From: Psilocybe azurescens
Lineage: Eukaryota > Basidiomycota > Agaricomycetes > Agaricales > Agrocybaceae
DNA length: 64,000 bases
Reading direction: 5' to 3'
Assembly: GCA_023853785.1 (NCBI GenBank)
Contig: JAJIRX010000622.1
Location: 1,240,001 to 1,304,000, forward strand
The notes beneath the pieces were generated by a model that saw only the letters and a list, made by a program, of their open reading frames with translations, was not told the DNA's origin and ran no database searches. Position 1 is the stretch's first letter; each line of letters starts with the position of its first letter. A program made the position numbers and the translations under genes. Positions 1-10,204 of this stretch are shown piece after piece.

Positions 1-1267
1 TCAACTTAATAACGTACATACTTTTAAACTTGTACAACTCTTATTTCGAAGGCAGCAAGATATATACCTCCCTCATTCTTTCATGCATGGACACATACGA
101 TGGCAGACGACTTCATGTTTTGTTGAAAATCTGTAATTTGACCTTGTTTTCTATAAATCTTCTCCGTTTTCATAGACATGTTCGTTAAGACCCCGTGGAC
201 ATTCATCGAACGTGAGAATTTGTCTATCTCACCTGGCCTTTCTTCCACCTTCGTTCAGATGATACTAATGGCTGACTGCCACCCCTGCGCTGTCCAACAA
301 GTGACTTGGAGGGCTGAGCTCCATACAGCAATTGCTCCGGGGTGTTATATGCCGTGGACATTCTATCAAAGCAAGGGCTAACCGTCGCCGAGAGTGTACA
401 AGAGAGCCATATTCTTTTCTTCAAACCAACATGTAGGCAGAACGAGGGCTGGAACTCTACTACTGTTTCATTATAACCTGTGTCAGCTGTGTAACATTGG
501 AGATACGATACAGGGAATATGTTACTGTCAGGTTGTAGCGGGCTCATCGTAAGCCCCGACATTACTGGCCAAGAGGAATCATTCTAGTATGATCTGAAAG
601 CAAGATTTCTATTGTAAGTAATATTATACCGATCCCTCGCAATTTGTTGTTGACATTACCCTCGAAATTCAGACCAACCTCATTTGGATGATCGATGACC
701 ACTGGTAAGCAACGACGCTTGGAGCTTTTATCAGATGATGCAGGCACTGAAACTGTCTTTTAACGCTTTCGGTCTCATAAACGAGACAATGATGCGGATA
801 AACACCTCTTCGACATTCGGGGGTGAGCTTTGCTAATTTGTTAGTGACTACTGTACTGAGCGGACTAGAGAAACAATCTTCGTGTGTTTGACACAGAGCC
901 TTTACGTCCCATCCTACCAGTTTTCTATCCTACTTGTTTTTCATGAACCCGCATATCCTAAGCTCATTTATTGAGAGACCTCTGCTCGAATACCGCCACT
1001 GACTGCTCAGGTACGCCGTCCATTCCGGAGAAGACCGTAAATGGTACCCAGGAGGTTCAGTTTTCCCTGTGTTGCTGAGCCACCATGTGTATAAGAATAA
1101 GCCAAGGAAACCCTTTTCATTACAACACGACCGATACAAATATGAAGGTGACGAGAGATACGAACAAGGAAATGTGATGGAAAGTTAAGCAATAAAGTTA
1201 AGCAGTATAACTGTGTTGTAGAGATTCGAATACTTATTCAACGCAAAAAGCCACGCGCCTCAACGTC
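1..1267. other. No gene recognised
   Basis: Only short ORFs in all frames, none with a recognisable domain or splice-linked partner. The right part presumably contains the 3' untranslated region of the CVNH gene that ends at 1268 on the minus strand. Confidence 0.5.
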
Positions 1268-2760
1268 TTAATGATGTCCATAGCCAATTCCATTTGCGTG
1301 GCCGTTCCCGGAGGAGTGGCTATGGCCATAGACGTTACCATTGCCAACAGCAACCTCATAGCTTTGATGATGCTCAGCGGCGCCTTGAGCATAAGCGCTT
1401 CCGCGCCCATAGTATCCACCTCCATAAATGCGGAGGTGCTCAGCTGCTGTGATAGATGCGCTGGCACTTGCGTGGCCAACAGCTCCAGAGACCAAAGTTT
1501 CCATTTGAGCAGAAACATGCTTCATGGCAGAAGCTGTAATGGCGGTGATAGCAGTCTCCATTGCGATGGTGAGCATTTTGTGCATCTCGACCGTGACGTG
1601 CTCGACCGTCGTCTCCGCAATGCTGATGAGGGTCTCTTGCATGACAGGGTGTTTAGCGAACACGCTCAGGTCGGGTTCAGCTATAACCTTGAATTTCATC
1701 CAAGGAACTTCGCTGAGCATGACCGAAAGTTTCTTGTTGAGCTCGATAATGATAAGAACACCATTGGCGTTGCGGAGTCGAGTGCGGAGATCCAGGCGAG
1801 CAATTCGGTATTCATCGCCTGCATGGATCTTATATTTTCCAACTAGGAAGAATCCATCGAGCGAGTATTCGAAGCAGTGTTTGCTGAATCCTGTTAGGTC
1901 CCATTGGAGATGGCCCTCGAAAAACCCGACAATCGCTTCGAGATCAATGCTGGAATGAACGACGGTGCCATCTAGACGACGGCATTGGGCGTGAAGGAAA
2001 GTGCCTTTAAGCTCGAGCTTTGTGCACGTTTCTTCAATCAAAAGATTATGGCTCTCGCTGGAAAAGCATCAGACTATAGAAAGCAGCAAAAAAAAATAAT
2101 GAACACACCGTTTAAAAATACGAGGATGAAAAGTGTGTCGATTTAGAAGTCGTCGAGGATGATGTCGCCACTGTGGTAGCACTTGACGTGGTTGACGTCG
2201 CGGAGAATAAGCTGGTAGCGCTGGCAGTTGTGGCAGTTGAAGCGGCACTGGCTGTTGAAATCCCTCTGGTCAAATCTGGCGCCGCTACCACTTTGATGGG
2301 TTCGGGTCTTTTTGGACTATGTGTACTTGCAAGATGAGACACCAGCGAAAATTAGATAAACAAAGAACTTACGATGAAAGAGAAAGGGGACGGGTGATGA
2401 ATTCTAAGACACCGTCAACATTTTTGATGTGACGGTTTAGATCAAGTTTGCTCTCGAGCGACTTCTTAGACTTCGCTGTGAGAATCCCTTCGGTATTCAC
2501 TGAAAGACTTTCAGCAGCATTACTGAAGCCATGAGACCCCCAAGTCAATTTGCCATCAACAAATCCTATGTGATCTTCCAGCTTGATGGAAGAGTTTGAA
2601 AAATTGGAGGTATCACGAATCTTGCATTTGGCAGATAGAACCCCAACTTTTGAGATTGATAACTCTTTGCAAGATGATGAAAGCGTCATGGAACTATTGA
2701 AAGACAGCGTCAGTGTCTTTACTGGTTGTATCAGCACAAGCTAACATACACTGATTTGGA
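1268..2760 (-). CDS. Double CVNH-domain protein, copy A
   Basis: CVNH (cyanovirin-N homology) proteins are small sugar-binding folds; the natural ligand here is unknown. Three exons are clear on the minus strand. The first (down to about 2370) is a full CVNH domain with the Cys-x(n)-Leu-x-A-x-C start, an SSIKL strand and a VDGKLTW turn. The second (about 2315 to 2125) is a Ser/Thr/Ala-rich linker. The third (about 2050 to 1268) opens with a second CVNH module (C-TKLELKG, AQCRRLDG, SSIDLEAI, GHLQW), then an Ala/Thr/His-rich probable helix, then a Gly/His/Tyr-rich tail ending in GHH. The two introns between these exons have GT-AG ends in the same phase (2) as in copy B, which proves the linkage. 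The true first exon, upstream of a probable gtatgt donor near 2753, is not resolved. No signal peptide is visible. Much of the third exon is nearly identical to copy B. Confidence 0.82.
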
Positions 2761-5378
2761 CAGGATAATGTTTGAGGCACGTTGTGAAAGGGATATTTGA
2801 AGAGAGGTGCAGCTTTAGATTACAAAATGACTTGTTTCCTTTCATTTCTCTGTCTTTATAATTGTTGGCGGGAGTTCGTCGAGCTCTCTTACAGTGACAC
2901 TGTCCCCATGAATTCTGCTAAGGTCGGACTATATTCTCGCCGGTGCAGAAGACTCTCCAGAAATAAAACATTGAAGGGACCGAAACCTGAAACGACCTGT
3001 CATTCAGGGATATATCGAGGTACAGGTCCCGGATAATTAAAGAGAAGAACGTTAGATCTAACAAGATCTAACGTAGCCGTCGTAAATAGGTCCTCAATTA
3101 TCCAATGGGAAGCGACAGAAACGAAGGCACTAAGAGCTCAAGCCTGCACAAAATCAACAATGGATCGCCCTCGTGTCCCTGTACACCGATGCAGCAGTAG
3201 AACAATTCAGAAGCACAGGCCCCAGGCGTCACTGAAGGAATGCATGGATTGATTGCCCAGACGCCAGACAAATGCCCTTGTTTCGTCTTTCTTTGAACAG
3301 CTGGTACCAGATGTATTCGGGATCAATTGTGCCTATCTTGAAGGTTACGGAAACTTTGACAGGACAGTTTACGGCCAACCCGTTGGAACTTGCGCCGTAG
3401 CATTCAAAGGGCAATGCAGCAAATTATGAGTACACTTTCCTAGCCGCCTGATATTGCTAAGAGAACGACGTTTTAAGCGAAGTTAGGGAGTCGAAAAGGA
3501 AATAGCTTGAAGTAGTTGTCAGAAGAGGTCTTCTGGCATCTGCCTAGTCCCAAAATTGCTGACACCGTGTGAAATTTGAACCACCTCCACACTGTGCCGC
3601 CTATTTGGCCTTGTTATTTCAGGCGCATTGGAGAAGAGCGGCGGCATTCAACAACCTCCGCTCTTAAGCCTTAGTCTGGAGATCGAAATAGTCAAGCGAG
3701 AGTTGCTCAGGAACTCTCAAATCTCTCTGAGTATGTCCCACGAATGTGATTTGATTCTATGGTCGCAACTCCCAAGCTTGACGGCCATCAAGGCTGAAGT
3801 GATCTGAGGAGTCCGAGTCACTGGCAGTTTGGTCAGTACTGCTCAATACTACTTAGAACTTTGTAGTCACCCATTGCAAATCTGATTTCAAAACTGAAGT
3901 TACTAGATTCTAAAGTGTGCTGTCTTTTGAGCTATCGTCGGCCACAAAGTTGATAGTCTTATCTTGGAAGCCTGGATCTCACGCAAACCCATGGATCATC
4001 AGTGTTCTCGACATTCAAACACATACATGTCTCAGGATGGATTCATTTGACCACAACGGGAGACGGGCGTCCTCTCCGCTTAGTTGCCGAGTCTCACATC
4101 TAAAAATAATGTTGCTCTAAATTAAGCGCTGATCCGTTGGAAGCTAACATCTTGTGTAGTGGTCGGTGCAGTTTTTGTTTCCTTCAAATTGTTTTCGCAT
4201 CCCATGGGTTGGACGATGAGAGTAGTTTTAACACAATTATATCTTTTAGCCCAAACGATGCTTTGTTCGCCGGTATCTCAAAGTTTTGATTACCTCTAGA
4301 CAGACGTCCATCCAGCACAAGGTACGTAATACGTGTGATGGACAAGTGCAGATAGGCTGTGAAATTAGCAGTATTGGTCACAGTTTGGCGAAATGTATCG
4401 ATAAAAATCCGTGGTAAGTATCAGTAGACTAGCGCCACAGCACAGGCGAACCAGTCGTGACCTTATTTATCCGTCCTTTTATCCCTAAGAATGGTCTTCG
4501 GGAGAGATAGAGTGCATAGTCATAACGTAAAAAGCAGGGAGTTAACTGATGCATTTGAACATATTGCATTCATTTATAAATGCTTGATAAGACTTTCTTA
4601 AGAGAGCAGTAACCCGACGAGAAGAAAGCAAGATATTAATTGTAAACTGTCAAGAATACACGATCCTGAAGTAGAGAGAATGTAGATCGATTTCTAACAA
4701 AGGTGGACAAAGACAAAAAAAAACAGTGAAAATAACTCATGATAAAAAGAACAGAAGCATAAATAAATAAGAACTAGTAGATACCCCGTACGTTACACGG
4801 GACATTCATAATTAATGGGAAGCAATATAACATACCCACTTATAATTTCCATGCCCAACTTTCAGTTATCTTTGTCAAATCTGTGTTCACAATTTCTCCT
4901 CGAGCTAGTGTAGCGACTTGCTTTAACTTACGCCATGTGAGGCAGTCCAAATGAGTCAGTGTATATTTCTACTTCCAATAAAGTTTTTTAGACAACTCCC
5001 CGATCGATCTCCTGCCAAAACACGCACGACTTTCAGTTGTTATTACACGTCAAAAACTGAAACTTTTACAGAAATAAAACCACAGCGAGGAAGGAAATAT
5101 AAATAACAATTAATCTCTCCGGACTCACAGTCCAAAAATCGAAAACGATAGAGAATTAGACCTCACTCGCCGAAAAGGGTTCGTGGGGAAAACATTCATT
5201 TATTACAAGCCGCGCCTCGCTAACGCTACGGCAACTCACAAACACATTGAAATTTTAGACGGTTAAAGACAAAAGAGAAAGATCCTAGTTGGCGTTCGTA
5301 AATAAGAGCAGAACAAATATGTACTATATAGGTAATATAGATAGGTGCGCTTCCTTTTTGAGGATAGAGAGAGAGCGA
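2761..5378. other. Gap between the two CVNH genes
   Basis: No coding region recognised on either strand. It must hold the 5' end and promoter of copy A and the 3' end of copy B. The ORFs in it are short and lack family motifs. The part from about 4550 to 5250 is AT-rich. Confidence 0.5.
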
Positions 5379-6900
5379 TCAAACATGAGAAACCTGGGCG
5401 TGTTTCGCAATCTCCGCGTAGCTGTGGTTGTCTCGCAATTCATGGTGAGAGTGGTTATCAGAGTGGGCGCTTCCGTGAGACTCGTAGTGGGCTGAATAAC
5501 CGTGTGCGCTGCCACTGGAATAACCGTTAGCCCCTCCGCTATGAACGTAGCCACCACGTCCGTAAAGATGCAAAGACTCGGCAGCGGTAATCGATGCACT
5601 AGCGCTCGCGTGGCCAATAGCGCCGGAGACCAAAGTTTCCATTTGAGCAGAAACATGCTTCATGGCAGAAGCTGTAATGGCGGTGATAGCAGTCTCCATT
5701 GCGATGGTGAGCATTTTGTGCATCTCGACCGTGACGTGCTCGACCGTCGTCTCCGCAATGCTGATGAGAGTCTCTTGCATGACAGGATGTTTGGCGAATA
5801 CGCTCAGGTCGGGTTCAGCTATAACCTTGAATTTCATCCAAGGAACTTCGCTGAGCATGACCGAAAGTTTCTTGTTGAGCTCGATAATGATAAGAACACC
5901 ATTGGCGTTGCGGAGTCGAGTGCGGAGATCCAGGCGAGCAATTCGGTATTCATCACCTGCGTGAACCTTGTATTTTCCAACTAGGAAGAATCCATCGAGC
6001 GAGTATTCGAAGCAGTGTTTGCTGAATCCTGTTAGGTCCCATTGGAGATGGCCCTCGAAAAACCCGACGATCGCTTCGAGATCAATGCTGGAATGAACGA
6101 CGGTGCCATCTAGACGACGGCATTGGGCGTGAAGGAAAGTGCCTTTGAGCTCGATCTTTGTGCACGTTTCTTCAATCAAAAGATGCTGGCTCTCGCTAGA
6201 GAGAAGAATAGAATTAGAAAAAGTTATTTGACCATTTGCTAAATATTTTTACCTTCGGAATTTTGAAGAGGAGAACCTTGTATAAGAAGACGAAGACTTT
6301 GTCTCTGCGAATGAAGATGTGGAGACAGAAGTCGCCGTAGAAGTGGATGAGGCGGCCGAAAACATGCTACTGGCACTGGCAGCACTGGCGACGCTTGCGA
6401 CACTAGATTCGGAGATCCCTCTCGAAATTTCGGGTGCCACTAGATGCTTACTACTAATTCTATTATCAGCAGGTAAATAAATCAAAAGATCGCGGTAACT
6501 CACGCGTCAACTGGGTGAGAGTTGGGAATGACGGCCAAGATACCATCTTGATTTTGGATGTAAATGTTGAGATCGAGTTTGCTCTCCACCAACTTGCCAC
6601 CCGACTTGAGTTTGGCAGATAGGACACCGTTGGTGATGTGGATATCCTCAGAGGTGTGGCTGAAGCCTCTACCTCCCCAGGTGAGCTTTCCATCTACGTT
6701 TCCAATGTAGTCGTTAAGCGAAAGCGATGAATGAACGGTGGTCTTCTTGTCGGCCTTTTGCAGTCAGCAGAGAGAACACCCTTAGTGATGGTGATTTTGT
6801 CGCAAGTGTCAGAGAAAAGCATCGTGCTAGAGTACCAAGTGCCATGGTGAGTATACGGCCGGTGCTAAGAAGTAAAATGTACATACTCGAAGATTGAAGG
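5379..6900 (-). CDS. Double CVNH-domain protein, copy B, with a one-base frameshift
   Basis: This is the paralogue of copy A with the same order: CVNH domain 1, Ser/Ala/Thr linker, CVNH domain 2, Ala/Thr/His helix, and a His/Ser/Gly-rich tail. Introns are well formed: gtgagt..aatag between domain 1 and the linker (about 6504-6460) and gtaaaa..ctag between the linker and domain 2 (about 6251-6198), both in the phase used by copy A. Domain 1 keeps VDGKLTW and the paired LSAK/LSAD strands. Its reading frame breaks at a run of four bases at 6756-6759, where five would keep the conserved frame. This could be a real inactivating indel, but similar shifts occur in most genes here, so a sequence error is likelier. 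The tail sequence differs completely from copy A. The first exon is uncertain: reading frames continue upstream to about 7000. Confidence 0.8.
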
Positions 6901-7340
6901 TAAGGCGGGCACTGAAGTGTTTAGAGGAGGTCTGAATCTCAAGAGGTGCCTACAAGGATGTTGGTTTTCAAGGCAGGCTAGAAGAACTTTTATACTCACC
7001 TCAAGTTTGAAACTCAGGGATAGAGTTTGATTCCTGTCTTGTGTCCCCCGATATTTTGGAGCCGACTATGAAAGCAATATTTGGATCGCTATCGACGAAT
7101 GAGATTTTACCCTGTGGGTTTGAATGGTTCCGAGAGCATAATGAGCAACAAAAATAGCTCTTAAACTTGAGATCAGAATTGAACAGGATTTTGACATAAC
7201 CGCGCACTTCTTCCAAAAATCCCGTTATTTGATTGACATTTGTCATTCCATAATTAGGAACAGGCACTACACAATTCCGAATACAAAGAATGAGCCAAAT
7301 AACAACATCTGGAGCATTTCGGAGATATGTAGTGTCCAAG
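6901..7340 (-). other. Possible upstream exons of CVNH copy B
   Basis: Splice-like signals are placed so that open stretches join in frame: a gtgagt..ccttgtag intron about 7000-6950, and a gtaaaa..tttcatag intron about 7110-7065. The peptide between reads LSLSFKLEAPLE and continues to ARLTFNLR just before domain 1. Copy A has a similar QTLS stretch in its upstream region. No domain is recognised and the start codon is not identified, so this is tentative. Confidence 0.3.
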
Positions 7341-10204
7341 TTGTGAATGAGAAAGGGCTAGAAGTAACACTTTTGGTATCCTGGGGTGTCGCTTAGTTGC
7401 AGTCCTTCAAGTAACTGTAGCAGAATTCGATCTAAGATACAGATTCAGCACCAAATGAAGACGCGTTACATCCAGAGAAGGACTCTCGTAGCAAGCAAGA
7501 AAGGCTGAGATTTGGGTGAGGCGCATAGAGACTTGGGAGGGACCTAGATGAATCTGCCTTTCCAGAATACATTGTACTGTTATGAAAGGCATTGATCACT
7601 TGCCGGTTGAGATTCGACAGAAAAGCATAAGTATTCAATTGGCATGTGCAGCAACTCGAAGTGGAAGTACGGTCCAGTGGCAGGTCCACTGCTGACTTAG
7701 AGAAGCAAGTTGGCAGTGGCAAGCGTCGGCCTGATATTTTGGCCGTCAGGAGACGTGTCTGAGCCTCTGCCAGATAAGTTTGAGCAGTTGATAGAGATTC
7801 GCCGTAGAGACTATATTTGGCGTGACCAGAGTGGGTAAAGAGCGGCACAATGATGGATAACGAGACGAACAAGTGATGCTCCAAATTTCTGTTGCTTGGA
7901 CTTGATTGGCGGCTCCCCGCAACTCGTAATTAACTTTGTTGACTTGAAGGACTTCCCTGGGCTTCCTTCATTCCTTGCTGATTCCAAACTAGCAGATCCT
8001 CCATCAATCCGCTGAGGGCTGAGTGGTTGTGCCGGGGTCCGACGGAGCCAGACATGTGATAACTAGAAAGTTTTGTCGAGCCGACATTTGTATACCTTGC
8101 ATCCTTTCTTAGTACTTAATATTGACTTAATACCTTGCACTTGACAGAATATTCAGTTCATAGGAAACAGACGTTTTGCAATCGATTTTTGAAAATATGT
8201 TGAACCGTTTGGCAGGCAGTTTGGCTTTATGTTTGTGTGCCGAATAAGACAGTGTGCGTCTTACGGCTTATTAGGCGTTATAGTCCGCTTGGACCGCACA
8301 ATACTCTGAGAGACAGACGTTTGAATTAGCGTCGGCTGACAATCGATGGCAAAATACCGTTTCGAAATAAATTATTAATATGTACTTTGGACGACAGTCA
8401 CATCAACAAATCATGTCAAGACCTGTAATAGCTACCATTTTAGCCGTCAAAATCTTTCACGGCTGTTTGACTTGCTCGAATCACAGTGGCATTGGACAGA
8501 GGCTTATGTTACATAATAAACCAGCTTCTTTAATCTCTATGTACTTTGTGTGATAGATCTTCCACTGTCCTTGGGACCCTGAAATAGATTGCATCCGAGT
8601 CGGCACAACGTTTCTGTTTCGGCTCTAAAGACACCAGTAGTGGAAGTTTTATTCAGCAGACAACTGAAATTGCGACTGAACTAGACCTTTCAGCTCTTTC
8701 TTGCTTGGAAAGGTGTTCTGAATAATTTTATCGTCGCTTAAGGTTTCATCATCTAATTTTGCACAGGAATAGGGTGATTCATTTTCAAGTTGCCCGGGGT
8801 ATCAAATGGAATCCATGGATTTGAACATGCAGATACCAACAATTGATTATGCATTGAATTGACCAAGGATTGACGTCTATAGAGAAACCTTCTCAATATG
8901 TTCTTGGTGTTGAAAGTATCTGACCCATCTTTACTATTGTAGATCCATTGACCGTCGAGAGTTCCTCACCGCTTTCAGCTATTATGAAAATCTTACTCAT
9001 TGGAGGTTGCACCATCCGTTTAAGTTCTGTCTCGATCTAGAGCTCGGAGTATGATACGGCCTTATACCAAGTTACTTATACATGTGTGGTTTTACGCAAG
9101 AAAGGCGCAGAGAGCACATAATGTTTTGGCCTGCACTTGTTGCCATTATAAATTTAGATCCACAGAGTTCTCACTAAGGATGACGTGTCACTTGTACTCC
9201 ACAATGGACCTCATATTCAGGAGAAAGGTCAGTGAGCGCACACATAAAAGCTCGATTAGAATCCAGTGACTGAGTTATAGGAAAACAGCATTTTTGGTTA
9301 AAGAGTACGCGATTATCTTTAACAAAGCTGTACCGATACGAAACCTCTGCTTAATACTGTATGATTGGCTCACATCTTCTCAACGGTTATTACAGTCCTA
9401 CCACTAGCACTCCTCCGGGATGGTCTTAATGAGAGCTTGATCTTTGATTAAAGAAGCCGTCGATCAACTGGATTCATACAAAAACACTGCTATTGTGAGA
9501 CCAGGTTTGTCAAATTTGCGTGCTAGGAGCATAAGTCATAAGGAAATCCCAATATATGGCAGGAAATCAATGAAAAACATTTCGTCTCTTAATTATACAA
9601 GAAAGGGTTAAGCTTTCCATGGTTAGCGCGGTTTTCAATCTCCAACTAACCGAATTTAAGCCACGCTATCAAATCCGAAATTGCAAATGATCTGCGTCTC
9701 CCAACTGGTAAAACAAAGCCTAATGCGGTAACGCGCCACAGAAATTTATCGCATGAAGCTGGTCGGCGAAGGAGTGAAAAAGTTTCGACTGACCTTGTTC
9801 GACAACAATCCATTTGGTATATGAGAGCTAACATCAAATCCCAACATATCTGAATGTTAAGGCCCAATAGGCCTATTAGGAAGGAAGCCCCGGAGTCAAC
9901 AAGGAAGTGGCCGTATCATTGACCGTCCGTGTGTCGCATAACGCGTCGAGACCACACATAAGTAAAGTCTGGAGTCGTGTGTGTTCTAAATACTTTAGTA
10001 TGAGCGTCATAGACGGAGAGCCGTGACTTCTAACTCTGCACATATATGACTTAATTACGGACGTTCTCATATGGTAGCTGGCGTGGGAACAAGGGGCTCA
10101 TTCTGGGAGTGACCCGTGACGTCATATCGTGGTACGGGTATTTGAGAGACAAAACGTTGCGCGGAACGAGGACATCCTTCCCTTCCTTCAACACAGAATT
10201 CGAA
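7341..10204. other. No gene recognised
   Basis: About 2.9 kb without a recognisable gene. A minus-strand ORF at 7432-7884 is open for 150 codons but has no domain I know and no conserved splice context. The rest has only short, overlapping ORFs typical of non-coding AT-balanced sequence. Confidence 0.45.

Follow-up and report, generated by a model that had tools for sequence, protein, structure and literature searches.

Two neighbouring genes of Psilocybe azurescens are nearly identical over the core of their third exon and strongly diverged on either side of it. How did two such genes come to share their middle, but neither of their ends? We addressed this in a window of 64,000 nucleotides (the whole stretch analysed, C529:1240001-1304000), taken from a genome of 70.4 Mb in 937 contigs.

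Two tandem CVNH genes and their shared block

The genes, A and B, lie head to tail and are both on the minus strand. Gene A (2689-1268), with an a-type head and an a-type tail, has exons at 2689-2373, 2316-2122 and 2057-1268 and encodes 433 residues in a frame that is open across all three exons; we took the first ATG of exon 1 as the start, and an additional exon upstream is possible. Gene B (6822-5379), with a b-type head and a b-type tail, has exons at 6822-6504, 6453-6253 and 6195-5379, and carries a 1-nt frameshift in exon 1, near 6759. The splice sites of both genes were read by eye from the sequence, and the exon models are predictions; an automated splice finder, which is permissive to stop codons, served only as a guide to the open pieces of a neighbouring Sqt1-like gene.

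Both proteins run from a CVNH domain through a Ser/Ala-rich linker to another CVNH domain, a helix and a Gly/His/Tyr-rich tail. The CVNH family (Pfam PF08881) comprises cyanovirin-N and its fungal and fern homologues. Both halves of A and of B score above the Pfam cut-off (51.9, 54.4, 56.9 and 55.8 bits versus 24.5), and the named sequences most closely related to A and B come from Psilocybe cubensis. A genome-wide family search found at least eight CVNH stretches, making at least four gene copies: A, B, one on contig C670 and one on contig C113. We refer to the latter two as locus 2.

To look at the fold of the exon-3 product, we modelled exon 3 of A. Without an alignment the model was uninformative (mean pLDDT 36). 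With an alignment of 42 sequences, the prediction gave a confident CVNH fold over residues 11-100 (block means of pLDDT 92-98), a helix over residues 137-195 (means 73-92, dropping to 53 at the helix end) and a disordered tail. A Foldseek search with this model returned 25 matches with E <= 0.001, all of cyanovirin-N/CVNH type, with a target-normalised TM score of up to 0.87. The predicted model thus supports a CVNH fold for the second domain only.

The first CVNH domain of B is less straightforward. The frameshift lies just past its second conserved Cys and is common to B and to the copies on C670 (L009) and C113 (L010), while in the P. cubensis relatives P0002 and P0004 the domain reads through at this site. 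A tiny intron, tried by hand as a rescue, does not restore the frame. The Pfam match in the first domain of B covers the later part only (profile 25-101), and the stretch after the frameshift has a dN/dS of 0.18-0.28 between B and locus 2, on few changes, as if it were constrained. The genes had been introduced in a preliminary description as double-CVNH; the profile scores bear this out in both halves of A and B, but the first domain of B is not one frame from an ATG. Judged from the sequence, B appears to be double-CVNH by descent and its product perhaps not. Three related gene models (P0013, P0015 and P0020; one each from a metagenome, a Galerina and a Gymnopilus) are without the first CVNH domain, as a B product starting in the linker would be; broken first domains may recur in this family, or these may be poor gene models.

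We delimited the shared block by a maximal-segment scan over the 1377 gap-free A/B columns of the gene. It covers the second CVNH domain and the following helix, at 1488-2046 in A and 5626-6184 in B (both minus strand). Of its 559 columns 12 differ, whereas 370 of the 818 columns elsewhere in the gene do. Its segment score of 134 was reached in 0 of 20,000 permutations (permuted maximum 15). The longest identical runs are 155, 143, 98 and 77 bp, whereas the longest run in 5,000 permutations was 45 bp. Counted per 50 columns, there are 15-29 differences upstream, 0-5 in the block, 7 in the interval that straddles the 3' edge and 19-28 beyond it. The 5' edge falls ~10 bp after the start of exon 3, which is at 2057 in A and at 6195 in B; the 3' edge is within the same exon, immediately ahead of the variable Gly/His/Tyr-rich tail. 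The preliminary description had placed the block at 1488-2059 in A with about 15 differences; those bounds stand, with 14 differences in the interval, including two more at A 2048 and 2047. It had also described the first CVNH domain, the linker, both introns and the tails as strongly diverged, and this holds.

The contrast extends to silent sites (Nei-Gojobori counts). Outside the block, A and B differ by synonymous changes at 45.3 of 56.2 sites in the first domain (exon 1, 2373-2689 in A and 6504-6822 in B), 37.6 of 49.7 in the linker and 32.3 of 36.8 in the tail, all of them saturated. Inside the block there are 14 changes in 131.2 sites, a dS of 0.115.

Different histories of the 5' half and the block

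P. cubensis has an a-type gene (JR316_0005891) and a b-type gene (JR316_0005892) with consecutive locus tags, on contigs of equal size; we call them 5891 and 5892. All comparisons with orthologues were made at the protein level. Over the 5' half, A is 76% identical to 5891 and B is 80% identical to 5892, while A and B are 52% identical to each other. The tails tell the same story: the a-type tail of A (1268-1480, minus strand) matches 45 of 66 residues of 5891 and the b-type tail of B (5379-5625, minus strand) matches 48 of 63 of 5892, against 27 of 67 between A and B. Tail matches pair A with 5891, B with 5892, and locus 2 with A and 5891. Head and tail of A and B therefore follow their P. 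cubensis orthologues, and the flanking markers are unexchanged on either side of the block.

The block itself behaves differently. A and B are 98% identical there, whereas A and 5891, B and 5892, and 5891 and 5892 are each 90% identical. Equal conservation of the block between species, which the preliminary description had named as the sign of purifying selection, is thus not what the proteins show. The P. cubensis pair differs at 19 block residues. Both A and B match 5891 at 7 of these and 5892 at 10, and at 1 they have a third state in common; at the remaining one, residue 73, A matches 5891 and B has a state of its own. There is no site (0 of 19) at which A has the 5891 state and B the 5892 state. 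As to donor direction, the shared states point both ways, 7 being a-like and 10 b-like. A middle that A and B share, between flanks that they do not, argues for conversion rather than a single crossover or a swap of the whole domain.

To place these genes among their relatives, we built trees from 23 of 55 matches together with the four own copies; Crucibulum was dropped, as the pattern did not find its block start, which left 26 rows. The matches left out are P0008, which closely resembles P0006, P0024, which is partial, and a further 30, including P0025, P0026, P0048 and P0053, which are long enough. On the block-protein tree (26 rows), copies group by species with support of 95/83 for the own copies, 98/93 for Gymnopilus, 93/94 for Agrocybe and 81/84 for P. 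cubensis, while the two Galerina copies do not group. Species-wise grouping of the block is therefore strong in this genome and in Gymnopilus, moderate in Agrocybe and P. cubensis, and absent in Galerina. A tree of just the second CVNH domain agreed with this at lower support, and the helix on its own held too little signal.

The tree of the 5' half has 23 rows, as three of the 26 are without this half. It places A, 5891, one Agrocybe and one Gymnopilus copy in an a-type clade (99/96), in which A pairs with 5891 at 100/99. A b-type clade (85/77) holds B, both locus-2 copies, three P. cubensis, one Galerina and three Agrocybe copies and two metagenome rows; within it, B groups with locus 2, 5892 and two more P. 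cubensis copies at 99/98. Independently of the tree, the four a-type rows have in common a linker motif that starts with SPK-K/R-P and ends in IK.

AU tests on the 23 rows, with groups named after the trees had been seen, separated the two histories. For the block, they rejected the a-type clade (p 9.9e-5) and the pairing of A with 5891 (p 0.004); for the 5' half, they rejected an own-genome clade (p 3e-10), a P. cubensis clade (p 2e-7) and an Agrocybe clade (p 0.007). Mapping the a/b label takes 1 change on the 5' tree and 4 on the block tree, and mapping the species label (five groups, minimum 4 changes) takes 6 and 4, respectively. Overall, the 5' half sorts by old a and b lineages and the block mainly by species. 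A duplication of even age is ruled out by the silent-site contrast and the 5'-half tree. That homogenisation of the block has recurred in other lineages is partly supported: the P. cubensis blocks, at 90%, are no closer to each other than blocks are between species.

A third gene at a second locus

Window positions 1-8258 belong to a segment that is shared, in diverged form, with locus 2 (C670:464765-470863 and C113:11239-17358), starts 4 bp before the window and is abrupt at both ends; its length is ~8.3 kb on C529 and 6.1 kb at locus 2. The two locus-2 contigs, C670 and C113, resemble alleles (95% over 20 kb, 96% over 5.1 kb). A 4.8-kb stretch of C670 (473404-478163, L009/L043) is missing from the C113 allele and is likely a recent insertion. 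We rejected the idea that the C529 and C670 segments are simple alleles: the C529 match ends abruptly on both sides, and window 12000-20000 matches neither C670 nor C113, its single other match being at 73% to another part of C529. We saw no second allele for the C529 locus.

The single locus-2 gene resembles B throughout exon 1, the linker and both introns, and resembles A in the tail and 3' flank. At the 3' edge of the block, locus 2 still agrees with B at A 1480 and agrees with A at A 1469, so that the switch lies between these two positions. Position A 1480 lies in the codon of residue 189, which is Ile in B and locus 2 and Val in A and both P. cubensis proteins, so that the B-likeness of locus 2 at this point looks derived. 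Recombination of paralogous copies at the 3' edge of the block, which would join a b-type head and block to an a-type tail, probably gave rise to this third gene.

The intergenic DNA has also been rearranged. On C529 the order is X, b-head, block, b-tail, I1 (4833-5151), I2 (3064-4328), I3 (2877-3063), a-head, block, a-tail, D. At locus 2 it is X, I2, I1 and I3 (each inverted), b-head, block, a-tail, D, so that the single gene has the pieces from window 2877-5151, reordered, on its upstream side. A simple unequal crossover of directly repeated copies would be insufficient to produce this, because the intergenic DNA is inverted and reordered. By our reasoning, one path could be an inversion from the X/b-head junction to the I2/I3 junction, a second inversion across the two blocks, which by then face opposite ways, and the disappearance of the gene with a-head and b-tail; excision of a circle and its re-insertion would explain the order equally well. 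An 11-bp inverted repeat with a 4-base loop (3049-3074) sits exactly at the I2/I3 junction, which is a breakpoint between the two loci. The ~500 bp between I1 and I2 (window 4329-4832) are without a counterpart at locus 2, reflecting an insertion here or a loss there. Directly 3' of B, window 5190-5328 has 16 further matches on 15 other contigs (71-93% identity) and is probably a small transposable element or solo repeat.

For the Sqt1-like WD40 gene near window 20.8-22.3 kb, the best match is on a P. cubensis contig of the same size as that of 5891 and 5892. CVNH and Sqt1-like genes are on equal-sized contigs in Galerina marginata too, and for one of two copies in Flammula alnicola; contig sizes disagree in Hebeloma, Gymnopilus, Agrocybe pediades, Crucibulum and Rhodocollybia. 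Agreement is thus found in 3 of the 8 species compared, among assemblies of unequal quality. Together with the P. cubensis pair and the tail matches, this leads us to take a tandem pair near Sqt1 as the older arrangement and locus 2 as derived.

Probable gene conversion, its alternatives and known systems

We consider it highly probable (roughly 0.88) that patchy ectopic gene conversion of the exon-3 core homogenises A and B, which would be old tandem CVNH-CVNH-helix paralogues. The preliminary description had suggested ectopic conversion or domain replacement, and is supported by a block dS far below that of the saturated flanks and by the shared middle between unshared flanks. In our model, the second CVNH domain and the long predicted helix would be homogenised between A and B in patches, within ~560 bp, the first domain, linker, introns and tail having diverged too far to take part. 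Slow protein change in the block would keep long identical runs as a substrate for recombination, and conversion would in turn reset the silent sites and keep those runs long; intron 2 and the low-complexity tail, being without homology, would end the tracts.

A further comparison concerns timing. Between block positions 36 and 556, a range that we fixed with the data already in view, 4 changes are private to A and 5 to B, and 20 lie on the locus-2 stem. Within this range, the sequence that A and B last had in common seems to be younger than the split of the loci: a test of this against C670 is strong there (p 0.0015 and 0.004) and modest over the whole block (p 0.036 and 0.019). The block-protein tree puts B closer to locus 2 than it is to A (98/88), which counts against conversion between A and B. 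Two residues that contribute to that grouping, 10 and 189, lie at the block's edges, and in A both are in the P. cubensis state.

Could the exon-3 core instead have been moved once, by a double crossover or an exon-sized duplication, with no continuing conversion? The position of the 5' edge at the start of exon 3 would suit such an event, and a single long replacement would likewise spare both flanks. The ten interior A-B differences are clustered, however, with five of them within 16 bp; only 56 of 100,000 random draws were as tight. This points to several tracts that left some patches untouched. Moreover, the block, unlike the 5' half, groups by species in several genera. We regard a one-off replacement as unlikely. 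An assembly or polishing artefact, in which reads of one copy corrected the other, is more doubtful still. Identical runs of 77-155 bp are about the size of short reads, but A has 8 and B 7 private block sites, mostly silent; the locus-2 copies have stayed distinct, differing from A or B at 29-38 of 579 sites; and the tandem pair is present in P. cubensis too. Lastly, purifying selection on the protein, the codons or an embedded signal could be imagined to keep two old copies alike, given a very conserved block protein (dN 0.004-0.023 among the four own copies, 20 columns invariant across the 42 aligned relatives), but we give it almost no credence, because the silent sites of the block are not frozen (dS 0.19-0.25 between the A/B locus and locus 2, 0.064 between the two locus-2 alleles) while near-identical between A and B, so that protein or codon selection alone is insufficient, and because orthologues are less alike than A and B.

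Beyond patchy conversion between A and B, a broader view is tempting, to which we would give slightly less than even odds: the exon-3 core may be a long-lived conversion island across several mushroom genera and a crossover site for new combinations of head and tail, such as the C670/C113 gene. Recurrent conversion would then keep a shared chassis (the second CVNH domain with an oligomerising or partner-binding helix) alike among the copies of one genome, as the first CVNH domain and the tail go on diversifying. Such a diversifying first domain beside a homogenised core offers a testable guess as to which part meets variable ligands. With saturated flanks, ~560 bp reset between them and a third, probably recombinant gene in the same genome, the locus is a natural experiment on how conversion partitions a gene. 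It also means that trees from whole CVNH proteins, or from the conserved part alone, will misplace orthologues in the CVNH-CVNH-helix family.

The process, gene conversion, is already well known; the A/B case is unusually clear in form. Among the matches listed by our literature search, judged by title and start of abstract and with most subscription journals outside its reach, none dealt with conversion between CVNH genes. Compared with the CVNH family at large, A and B are typical in scoring above the PF08881 cut-off in both halves and in an exon-3 model that resembles cyanovirin-N/CVNH structures. They are atypical in carrying two domains on a Ser/Ala-rich linker, followed by the predicted long helix and the disordered tail; by sequence they are lectin-like. 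As in chimeric genes made by paralogue recombination, the C670/C113 gene joins a B-like head and block to an A-like tail and 3' flank, but it differs from them in its inverted and reordered intergenic DNA. In an Aspergillus flavus/A. oryzae region, neighbouring copies are reported to have undergone conversion in each of the two species, accompanied by gene splitting (PMC12844118). The reported case and ours are alike in that paralogues within a genome are closer than orthologues. They are unlike in that conversion between A and B would be limited to the exon-3 core, whose two flanks are saturated, and in that A and B belong to a lectin-like family of a mushroom.
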